From: Desulfofarcimen acetoxidans DSM 771
Lineage (GTDB): Bacteria; Bacillota; Desulfotomaculia; Desulfotomaculales; Desulfofarciminaceae
Reading direction: 5' to 3'
Assembly: GCF_000024205.1 (NCBI RefSeq)
Contig: NC_013216.1
Coordinates: forward strand, 2,542,001 to 2,606,000
DNA length: 64,000 bases
Part shown: one piece after another, positions 31,126-37,914 of the stretch
How positions within the stretch are numbered: the stretch's first letter is position 1
How the letters are laid out: every line of letters begins with the position of its first letter
Notes under the pieces: generated by a model
What the model saw: only the letters and a program-made list of their open reading frames with translations
The model's database searches: none
What the model was told of the DNA's origin: nothing
Program-made: the position numbers and the translations under genes

Positions 31126-32148
31126 CTAAAACTGCCCCAAAAATCTTAAGTCGTTATCAAAAAGCAGGCGCAAATCATCAATACCGTATTTGAGCATAGC
31201 AATTCTTTCAACTCCCATGCCAAAGGCAAAACCGGTTACTTCCTCGGAATCATAACCGGACATTTCCAATACTCTGGGGTGCACCATACCTGAACCAAGC
31301 ACCTCCAGCCAGCCTGTGTGTGAGCAAACACGGCAACCTTTTCCACCACACATTACACAGGAAATATCAACCTCCGCACTGGGTTCTGTGAAGGGGAAAT
31401 AGCTGGGGCGGAAACGAGTTTTGGTCTGGTATCCAAACATCTCCTCAGCAAAAACCTGTAAGACGCCTTTTAAATCGCTGAAAGTAATTTTCTTGTCTAT
31501 AGCCAAACCCTCAATCTGGTGAAACATTGGTGAGTGTGTGGCATCATCGTCCCGCCGGTATACTTTGCCCGGAGCAATAATTTTTACCGGCAAGCCCGGC
31601 ACTGTTTTTTCCATAGTATGTACCTGTACAGGTGAGGTATGAGTGCGCAGCAACACTTCGTCAGTAATAAAAAAAGTATCCTGCATATCACGTGCCGGGT
31701 GATCCTTGGGCAGATTCAAAGCCTCAAAATTATAATAATCATGTTCAATCTCAGGTCCTTCAGCTATGGTAAAGCCCATACCCAGAAATATATTCTGTAT
31801 CTCCTCCGTAACTGTGGTTAACGGGTGTTTTTTACCCAGGATGACCGGCCTGCCCGGAAGAGTAATATCTATTTTTTCTGCCTTAATTTTAATTTGCTTT
31901 TCTATTGCTTTTAGCTTGTTAAGCCTGTTGCCCAATTCAACTTCTATTTGCTCTCTCACTTCATTGGCCACTTGACCGATTTTAGGACGTTCATCCGCTG
32001 AAAGTGAGCCCATTCCTCGCAAAACCTGAGTCAGCGAGCCTTTCTTACCCAGTACCCTGACTCTGATATCGTTTAACTGGCCCAAATTTTCTGCTGACTG
32101 AACAGCTGCAGCAGCTTCTTCAGCAATCTCCCGTAATTTTCTCTCCAT
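31126..32148 (-). CDS. pheS: phenylalanyl-tRNA synthetase alpha subunit
   Basis: PheS is the catalytic subunit of PheRS, a class II synthetase of 340 residues. The N-terminal coiled coil binds tRNA. Motif 2 is in the region [20 protein letters not shown] (near 200), and motif 3 is [18 protein letters not shown] near 310. Four cysteines in [12 protein letters not shown] near 270 may form a zinc site. ATG at 32148 is used since GGAGG lies 6 nt upstream; an ATG two codons earlier touches that site. A T-box leader with a UUC specifier precedes it. Confidence 0.97.
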
Positions 32149-32173
32149 ACCCATCCTCCTTTACATTTATTTA

Positions 32174-32244: not shown

Positions 32245-32520
32245 AAACAAAAATCCGCCCCATTAGGGACGGAAATATTCCGCGGTACCACCCTGTTTGT
32301 CTGCCTCAAGAATACCGGCAAACCACTTAAAAATCCAGGTATTAAAACCTTTCTCCCGATAACGGTGGAAAAAACCGGCTACACCTACTGGTATTTTACG
32401 TTCAGCTGCAGTTCAGGGGTGAAATTCAACAGGCAAAGTTCTTGAAAAGGCTTTCAGTCAATGACCTTTCCTCCCTGAATAACTTATTGACCTCTTACTC
32501 TTCCCCTTCATTACTGTTAA
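32245..32520 (-). promoter_or_regulatory. T-box leader of pheST (Phe, UUC specifier)
   Basis: On the minus strand the T-box sequence AGGGTGGTACCGCGG lies at 32294-32280. It is followed by the terminator CCGTCCC-TAAT-GGGGCGG with a T-run (32273-32245). Stem I begins near 32520 with GAAGGGGAAGAGTAAG. The specifier loop reads GAATTTCACC, placing UUC, a Phe codon, where uncharged tRNA-Phe would pair. Uncharged tRNA would stabilise the antiterminator and turn on pheS-pheT. Confidence 0.93.
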
Positions 32521-32573: not shown

Positions 32574-32741
32574 CAAGACAAGGGAAGAAAGAAAATAATA
32601 CCGTAATGTACTAGTGAATGGCTAGTTTCCTGTACATTATGTAGGCAGTAACCGACCCGGTCGCCTCGAACAGCCTCCAAAAAAAATCGGCGGTTAAAAA
32701 CAACTTAACCACAACCTTTCCCTGATTCTTGGGGACCTTCA
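32574..32741 (-). ncRNA. candidate structured RNA with paired ends upstream of the pheS T-box
   Basis: The minus-strand transcript from the promoter at 32748-32776 runs about 200 nt before the T-box starts. Its 5' part (32731-32716) contains CAAGA and AGGGAA, which pair with TTCCCT and TCTTG at 32591-32574. Inside are a GGTTAA/TTAACC hairpin followed by eight T, an AGGC-ACCG/CGGT-GCCT hairpin, and a nested TAATGTAC..GTACATTA plus ACTAG..CTAGT stem. End pairing over about 160 nt resembles the shape of 6S RNA, but I cannot confirm a family. Confidence 0.45.
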
Positions 32742-32747
32742 AGGTTG

Positions 32748-32776
32748 ATTATAACATATGGTCAGAGTCATTACAA
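32748..32776 (-). promoter_or_regulatory. promoter of the pheS leader RNA
   Basis: On the minus strand TTGTAA (32776-32771), a 17-bp spacer and TATAAT (32753-32748) form a near-consensus sigma-A promoter. Transcription would start near 32741. Confidence 0.8.
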
Positions 32777-32800: not shown

Positions 32801-33601
32801 TTAAACAGATCTTTGGCGGACAGCTTCATAAAGCATTATGGCTGCCGCTATAGCCGCATTCAGAGACTCGGCGTGACCCGGCATAGGAATATTGACGGGG
32901 ATTGCCGGCAGTCTTTTTAAGCCTTCACTTACACCGTTAGCTTCACTGCCCACCACAAGAGCTACCGGTCCGGTTAAATCTACCGAGTATACAGGTTGGC
33001 AATCCTGCGGCATACCAACTACCAACCTAATTCCTGCTTGTAATAACAACTCTGCCGCCTGAACCGGTTCACCGGCCATAATCACAGGCAAATGAAATAA
33101 AGAACCCATAGTAGCTCGCAGGGTTTTGGGATTATATAAATCCACTGTGCCTCTGCTCAAAATCACCGCGTCTACACCGGCAGCATCAGATGTTCTAATA
33201 ATTGTGCCCAGGTTGCCGGGATCTTGAATACCGTCCACTAAAACCAGCAACTGTTTTTTGACCCTGGTTAAAATCTCCTGTAAACCGGTTGGAACAGACT
33301 TGATCACAGCTACTACTCCCTGTGGGGTAGCTGTGTCAGATAAACTTTCCAATATTGGCTCAGTTACCTCCCAAAAGGGAACATTAGATTTATATATGCA
33401 TTCCAGCAATTCTTTCCCACGGTTGTTTTGAAAAAGTTTTGCCGAATATATTACTGCTTCGACAGACATGGCGGAGGCGAGCGCTTCCTCTACAAAACGC
33501 ACGCCTTCAATAATAAATTTCCCTTCTGTTTCACGAAAACGCCTTTTAGCCAAATGTTTCAGGTATCTTATTCTGGGGTTGTCCATACTGGTTATGAGCA
33601 T
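32801..33601 (-). CDS. TrmH/SpoU family RNA methyltransferase
   Basis: This SAM-dependent 2'-O-ribose methyltransferase has 266 residues. It has an N-terminal substrate-binding domain (MDNPRIRYLKHLAKRRFRET) and a SPOUT knot: LVDGIQDPGNLGTIIRTSDA near 132, VALVVGSEANGVSE near 213, and IPMPGHAESLNAAIAAAIML near 238. It is probably an rRNA 2'-O-methylase; the exact nucleotide is unknown. It is the YsgA/SpoU-like gene often found beside pheS in Firmicutes. It lies between rplT and the pheS promoter, on the same strand. Confidence 0.92.
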   Translation of the reverse strand: MLITSMDNPRIRYLKHLAKRRFRETEGKFIIEGVRFVEEALASAMSVEAVIYSAKLFQNNRGKELLECIYKSNVPFWEVTEPILESLSDTATPQGVVAVIKSVPTGLQEILTRVKKQLLVLVDGIQDPGNLGTIIRTSDAAGVDAVILSRGTVDLYNPKTLRATMGSLFHLPVIMAGEPVQAAELLLQAGIRLVVGMPQDCQPVYSVDLTGPVALVVGSEANGVSEGLKRLPAIPVNIPMPGHAESLNAAIAAAIMLYEAVRQRSV

Positions 33602-34839: not shown

Positions 34840-34992
34840 AGTATATCACCCCCATAAAAAATTAAAAAAGCAGGCAAAAGCCCGCTTAACAGACAAAAGT
34901 CCATATTTTTTAAAATACCTTAGTAACAGCTCAAGGCGTTTTAAGGTGAGAAGCGGCAACTTCTACTTTGTAAATTATGTTATTTATACATA
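34840..34992 (-). promoter_or_regulatory. infC operon leader with attenuator (L20-leader-like)
   Basis: The roughly 150-nt minus-strand leader ends in AAGCGGGC-TTTT-GCCTGC followed by six or more T (about 34885-34862), an intrinsic terminator just before the infC ribosome site. An upstream stem candidate includes GAAGTTGCCGCTTC. In Bacillus, L20 binding to such a leader causes early termination; the same control is inferred here. Confidence 0.65.
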
Positions 34993-37642: not shown

Positions 37643-37914
37643 AAATAAGAAAACCGTCCCTGAGAATAGGGACGGTCTTATTCCGTGGTTCCACCCAAAT
37701 TAGGAAATAAAATTTCCTCACTTCAGAGCAATTAACGTTTGCCGCCGGCTAAGCTTACTGATCTATAATCCCCTGAGGATTAAAATTTTCGGCTATGCAG
37801 TTCAAGGGTGGTTTTTAACCTGCCTTCTTTTAAAGACGCTTTCAACCAAGGCGGCTTCTCTCTGTAAACAGTACAGGTTTACTCTTCCCTATCATCACTT
37901 GTGAATATAATTTT
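37643..37914 (-). promoter_or_regulatory. T-box leader (Thr, ACC specifier)
   Basis: On the minus strand the T-box sequence GGGTGGAACCACGG lies at about 37695-37682. It precedes the terminator ACCGTCCCT..AGGGACGGT with TTTTCTTATTTT (37673-37645). The stem I start GGGAAGAGTAAAC is near 37890. The specifier loop reads TTAAAAACCACCCTTGAACTG, which presents ACC, a Thr codon. It controls the downstream membrane-protein gene and thrS. Confidence 0.93.

Follow-up and report, generated by a model that had tools for sequence, protein, structure and literature searches.

A putative 30-codon YqzL-like gene, rather than a free-standing RNA, precedes the pheS T-box in Desulfofarcimen acetoxidans

The analyses presented here indicate that the 168 nt ahead of the pheS T-box of Desulfofarcimen acetoxidans DSM 771 (positions 32574–32741 of the window, by which we mean the whole 64,000-nt stretch of DNA analysed, from a genome consisting of a single contig of 4,545,624 bases) belong to a protein gene and not to a free-standing RNA. 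We put at roughly 0.86 the probability that the element comprises a sigma-A-type promoter and a 30-codon first cistron of the YqzL family, which would be followed by a T-box or spacer and then by pheS–pheT. The original prediction had seen here an extra structured RNA; this holds in so far as a conserved element is present whose leader and first ~11 codons are constrained at the RNA level, but the 30-codon gene had been overlooked.

On the minus strand the order is rplT, SpoU methyltransferase, small gene, T-box and pheS. Downstream of rplT (34074–33718, assigned by Pfam) and of the immediate upstream neighbour, a gene for a SpoU-family rRNA methyltransferase (32801–33601; PF00588), the promoter scan places a sigma-A-type promoter (TTGTAA, 17 nt, TATAAT, with an extended −10 TG; 32748–32776). 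It is followed by a 5′ leader of ~38 nt (32704–32741), in which the alignments reveal a conserved AAGGTCCCC-AAAAA and the SD sequence GAAAGG (32720–32715), and by the small gene itself (32611–32703; PF14006), with a TTG start and a TAG stop. Beyond it lie the pheS T-box leader (32262–32520; RF00230, 112.3 bits) and pheS (31126–32154; Pfam tRNA-synt_2d and Phe_tRNA-synt_N). The downstream T-box claimed originally is borne out, and with the promoter-like site at 32776–32748 about 220 nt of transcript would lie ahead of it.

Conservation of the element follows a reading frame. When the 280-nt intergenic region was searched against 60 genomes, one of them the window's own, 49 of the 59 relatives proved to contain the element, at 71–84% identity (E ≤ 8e-5). 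The matches fall between query positions 3 and 202 and so extend from the promoter to slightly beyond 32611; in the alignment, a frame with variable third positions tracks the conservation, which fades past the stop codon. Within its own genome the region is single copy (the next best match has 17 bases, E 0.32), and a repeat or mobile element was ruled out, there being no second genomic copy. With a protein profile built from 48 relatives, strong copies were detected in 107 of the 113 genomes of the class and in 79 of the 80 of good quality. Alignment A1 holds 48 of 50 loci, L035 and L044 being omitted for want of a start codon at codon 1 (they would begin at codon 2), whereas alignment A2 and the codon counts include all 107 loci, with the codon frame of L114, L115, L129, L130 and L131 set from the match coordinates or by a one-codon shift. 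A second, weak genomic match of the A1 profile (E 0.0086) was discarded, as it lies inside an ORF judged MutL-like by eye.

The frame is 30 codons long in all 107 genomes, and its first codon is ATG (87), GTG (13) or TTG (5) in 105 of them. Pairwise differences among the 107 genomes at codon positions 1, 2 and 3 are 0.18, 0.08 and 0.50, respectively, so that the third position varies most. T15, G16, S17, Y21 and Y24 are invariant in 107/107 despite varying codons, W9 is likewise invariant, A20 is kept in 106, and Phe is present at positions 7, 8 and 12 in 104, 104 and 107 genomes. Judged by these comparisons of sequences, the 30-codon frame is under protein-level selection. An AlphaFold2 model of the encoded protein, MFLTADFFWRLFEATGSVTAYIMYRKLAIH, consists of helices 3–15 and 18–29 flanking a TGS turn (mean pLDDT 89, pTM 0.50); a search for a relative of the small protein with a solved structure yielded none (best E 0.57).

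The protein of the window matches the YqzL-like family, PF14006, with 28.0 bits (E 2.7e-6), barely over the curated cut-off of 27 and only across profile positions 1–22 of 44, so that coverage falls short of full length; in a six-frame search of the genome the same place reached 25.3 bits, under the cut-off. All 48 aligned relatives match PF14006 at E ≤ 0.01, and NCBIfam gave no match for the small protein. We treat the predicted protein as a short, diverged branch of the YqzL-like family and not as a typical member. It shares with the family the profile match over the cut-off and the core F.W..F..TG...AY.LY, but has 30 residues against 44 profile positions and lacks the extended C terminus seen in members linked to recO. 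Its setting differs too, the long members lying between Era-like and RecO genes (a context that is a feature of these members and does not define the Pfam model) and the short gene between SpoU and pheS.

In a phylum-wide sample of 299 genomes, 199 contain a PF14006 match at E ≤ 0.01, and in 123 the match exceeds the cut-off. Only the best 30 loci of this search were retrieved, and among these 17 adjoin PheS and/or SpoU–RplT. From the remaining 13, ten entered a neighbour check, 11 a layout comparison and 12 the start-in-loop count described below (L107 was omitted from the alignment of long members, the layout comparison and the count, and the misplaced alignment row of L108 was ignored). By eye, a RecO-like gene lies downstream in nine of the ten and an Era-like gene upstream in seven; at such loci Pfam confirmed RecO downstream in two and, upstream in one, a GTPase plus KH domain, an architecture that we take to be that of Era. 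As for the literature searched, YqzL was found only in a silage study (at the level of titles and listings), the papers listed for PF14006 concern malaria parasites and related apicomplexans, and neither the short pheST-linked form nor its start-codon hairpin turned up among the papers listed. While the family is already in Pfam, a short YqzL-like protein heading pheST is apparently unstudied.

The promoter scan found two promoter-like sites against 1.4 expected from shuffles. The extended −10 word stands upstream of the small gene in 105/107 genomes, just as many have a TTG[TA] word at the distance expected of a −35 box, and transcription would start ~7 nt past the −10, near 32741. PheS is downstream of the small gene in 104/107 (in two of the three exceptions the contig ends within 400 bases) and SpoU upstream in 94/107 (three of the 13 exceptions have <310 bases upstream in the retrieved stretch). 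This linkage to PheS makes the small gene the probable first cistron of pheST; in genomes that have the T-box, it would lie between the two genes.

Strict patterns recovered both T-box words in 22 of the 107 loci, and there stem I begins a median of 17 nt past the stop codon of the small gene (<40 nt in 19 of the 22); this leaves hardly any room for another promoter, and the T-box therefore lies between two cistrons in those genomes. The corresponding gap in the window measures ~90 nt and contains a weak promoter-like site (9 of 12, 32624–32595) that could drive the T-box and pheS separately, and because of this site we rate co-transcription of the small gene with the T-box and pheS only as likely. 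The T-box would be part of the same transcript but downstream of the small gene; in this region RF00230 matches 32262–32520 only, and not the small-gene element. A strict antiterminator pattern occurs in 53/107 loci. Rfam returned no T-box over its cut-off in 20 relatives, a count that understates T-boxes because L014, one of the 20, shows T-box words by eye. In four genomes (L049, L050, L144 and L145) the gap between the small gene and pheS is 54–61 nt, too short for a T-box, and the small gene is therefore independent of the T-box. In L055 and L059 the gap before pheS (122/123 nt) contains a terminator-like hairpin with a T run and no Rfam T-box, so that in these two genomes some other attenuator may stand in for the T-box.

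Turning to RNA structure, the GGTTAA/TTAACC stem that had been singled out proved to be real, and it encloses the start codon. In this hairpin (P2; 32690–32712), GTGGTTAA (32712–32705) pairs with TTAACCGC (32697–32690), the start codon is in the loop, and codons 3–5 are overlapped. On the 107-row alignment 86.4% of the cells are paired and 25 carry a double change, neither of which was reached in 500 shuffles, although this test, like the other pair and codon tests, ignores shared ancestry. Two other measures for P2 are unexceptional, the number of pairs showing a double change being reached in 186 of 500 shuffles and that of further pair types in 111 of 500, and a partner slid by −1 gives more double-change cells (31) but only 43.5% paired. 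Leader and start from one genome form more stable folds together than in re-paired combinations (0 of 2000), and the leader with the first codons (83 nt) has a z of −2.12, with 5/200 shuffles as good. The exact arm word is missing in 39/107 genomes. Thr4 is ACC in 68/68 genomes with the arm and in 21 of the 30 Thr-bearing genomes without it, and genomes without the arm more often use other synonymous codons at positions 3–5. RNAalifold on A2 (107 rows) recovered no such hairpin (three pairs, −0.46 kcal/mol), a negative result to which MAFFT, by displacing the leaders relative to one another, probably contributed.

The same layout, in other sequence, recurs in some pheS-linked relatives outside the class, for example with GGGGAGGGGUUUUAUGAUCCUUUCCGC in L098, L101, L102 and L103 (GGGGAGGGGUU-UUAUG-AUCCUUUCC in four loci). 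Defined loosely, a start codon in a loop occurs in 95/107 genomes in the class and in 12/16 outside it; shuffled leaders give 55% in both, which makes this a weak general test. Among the controls, the layout was seen in 5/12 recO-linked starts (36% shuffled), 28/65 PheS starts (25%) and 1/29 RplT starts (19%). On the pair counts and the re-pairing test, the loop of P2 contains the start codon in the majority of the genomes of the class.

The larger fold fared otherwise. Folded as a whole, the transcribed strand of the 168 nt reaches −42.2 kcal/mol, unremarkable at z −0.41 with 63/200 shuffles as good. The words of the proposed closing stems are present (CAAGA and AGGGAA at −28 and −20 relative to the start codon, with TCTTG and TTCCCT beyond the ORF), but of the 107 genomes only that of the window has the two stems together. 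Looking up to 80 nt past the stop, a 6-bp complement to the SD-side arm is no commoner in the own downstream sequence (25/107) than in foreign ones (116/428). The untranscribed strand of the window at 32574–32741 (+) is more stable than expected by chance (z −2.39).

Synonymous variation is unusually low in codons 3–11, a constraint that in part fits P2. TTT encodes Phe 7 and 8 in 202 of 208 cells but Phe 12 in only 56 of 107, and Arg 10 is AGG in 88 of 98 cases, against 118 of 254 for Arg at positions 19, 25 and 26. A possible outer pairing (P1; 32673–32737) would join GGTCCCCAAGAA of the leader (32737–32726) to TTTTTTTTGGAGGC of codons 6–11 (32686–32673). Duplexes of leader CCCCAAAAA with TTTTTTTGGAGG average −16 kcal/mol, whereas later codons yield −9 and −8; in an alignment-free test own pairs reach −16.2 and re-paired ones −15.5 kcal/mol (0 of 500), a small effect, and the own leader has a mean rank of 0.45 among all leaders, where chance gives 0.5. 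On A2, P1 displays no covariation beyond shuffles. Among genomes with variant codons, the own leader outperforms others in L039, L040, L045, L057, L119 and the seven whose codon 10 is AGA, but does worse in L042, L043, L114, L115 and L129–L133. L129–L131 carry Leu (CTT or CTG) at position 8, which breaks the T run, and L114 and L115 carry Leu at 7, their leaders differing too; the T run is therefore not obligatory. In sum, the evidence for an outer pairing P1 is suggestive only.

These observations bear on the second sensor of the original prediction, taken here as a ligand- or protein-sensing leader lying over the gene, in which the A-run and the SD sequence would compete for codons 7–8 and a ligand or YqzL would switch translation. 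Such a sensor would add to the gene and not replace it. The retention of the T run as TTT TTT, the pairing of the SD region with it in folds and of the leader A-run with it in duplexes, and the better own leader/ORF duplexes are all consistent with it; the lack of P1 covariation beyond shuffles, the leader rank, the shortness of the conserved leader (only ~38 nt) and its lack of likeness to any known RNA family speak against it, and we consider it improbable. Most of the conserved length is protein-coding, which fits a second sensor poorly, although there may be a small switch at the translation start. Similarly doubtful is a broader reading in which the miniprotein heads a pheST operon throughout the class and its mRNA is a dual-use element, where leader A-run and SD compete for TTT TTT with the start codon in the loop, and the protein, or the state of ribosome assembly or Phe-tRNA, sets both its own translation and, through coupling to the T-box, PheRS supply.

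The main rival for the gene reading is a leader peptide that attenuates pheST, ribosome stalling at Phe codons under scarcity of Phe-tRNA altering the downstream folding so that transcription reaches pheS. In E. coli, pheM encodes the leader peptide of pheST, of about 14 codons, and the frame described here resembles it as a short frame with Phe codons just upstream of pheST and near rplT. The position directly ahead of pheS, the retention of Phe 7, 8 and 12, the terminator-like hairpins of L055 and L059 and the four gaps without room for a T-box speak for such a peptide. Unlike pheM, however, the frame has 30 codons, evidence of protein-level selection, membership of the YqzL family and a T-box downstream, which in the window already serves pheS; moreover, the family also occurs beside recO, away from pheS. 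Conservation is not confined to regulatory codons, as would be expected of a pheM-like peptide: five residues other than Phe (T15, G16, S17, Y21 and Y24) and W9 are invariant, A20 is nearly so, and none of these is related to Phe. Conserved non-Phe residues with free codons therefore disfavour the role of leader peptide, which we judge unlikely.

Early termination at the GTGGTTAA/TTAACCGC stem and the T8 run, yielding a separate small RNA, is less probable still. The scan does class this stem and T run as terminator-like, but the stem has only three G–C pairs, a CGA spacer stands before the T run, and two terminator-like sites were found in 901 bases against 1.0 from shuffles. The T8 run is present as described, yet it consists of two Phe codons and their neighbours, so that termination would fall inside a conserved gene, and more than a third of the genomes (the 39 above) lack the exact arm word. 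To the element Rfam assigned no family, either when the window was searched at gathering scores or when the region was searched at E ≤ 10, where only unrelated matches at chance level appeared. A 6S-like RNA, to which only the apparent closing stems pointed, can be dismissed almost entirely, as RF00013 is unmatched at E ≤ 10, the closing stems are not conserved, and nothing beyond an irregular long fold is shared with that family; two 6S RNAs are encoded elsewhere in the genome (G000:C1:2446344-2446523 and G000:C1:1282158-1282339, at 95.6 and 67.3 bits).

Considering the preferred reading, a protein-coding first cistron, we suggest that transcription would begin near 32741, that ribosomes would bind at GAAAGG and initiate translation at the codon displayed in the hairpin loop, and that the product would be a 30-residue helical hairpin. 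Transcription would continue through the T-box (a short spacer in some relatives) into pheST, and, T-boxes being elements that respond to tRNA charging, the T-box would decide on pheST according to Phe-tRNA charging. The start-codon hairpin, possibly together with outer pairing of the leader A-run and TTT TTT, may set or regulate translation of the small gene. From its predicted structure and its neighbourhood, the peptide may be a functional protein, folded as a helical hairpin, with a part in translation or in the assembly of ribosomes; we favour this role because the two recurrent settings of the family are rplT–spoU–pheST and era–recO. A 30-residue protein of constant length in 107/107, found in 107/113 genomes of the class and before pheS in 104/107, is likely to matter to the cell. 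The locus also serves as a caution that what looks like a folded RNA in a leader may be a tiny gene, and it offers, in some relatives, a pheS T-box placed between two cistrons.

Two further leaders lie upstream in the window. A ribosomal protein L20 leader (RF00558, 67.5 bits; 34856–34974, minus strand) precedes infC- and rpmI-like genes and rplT. A second T-box (114.7 bits; 37665–37904, minus strand) is separated from a gene that by eye is threonyl-tRNA-synthetase-like (36950–35046) by an ORF of 220 amino acids (37629–36967), an unusual arrangement.
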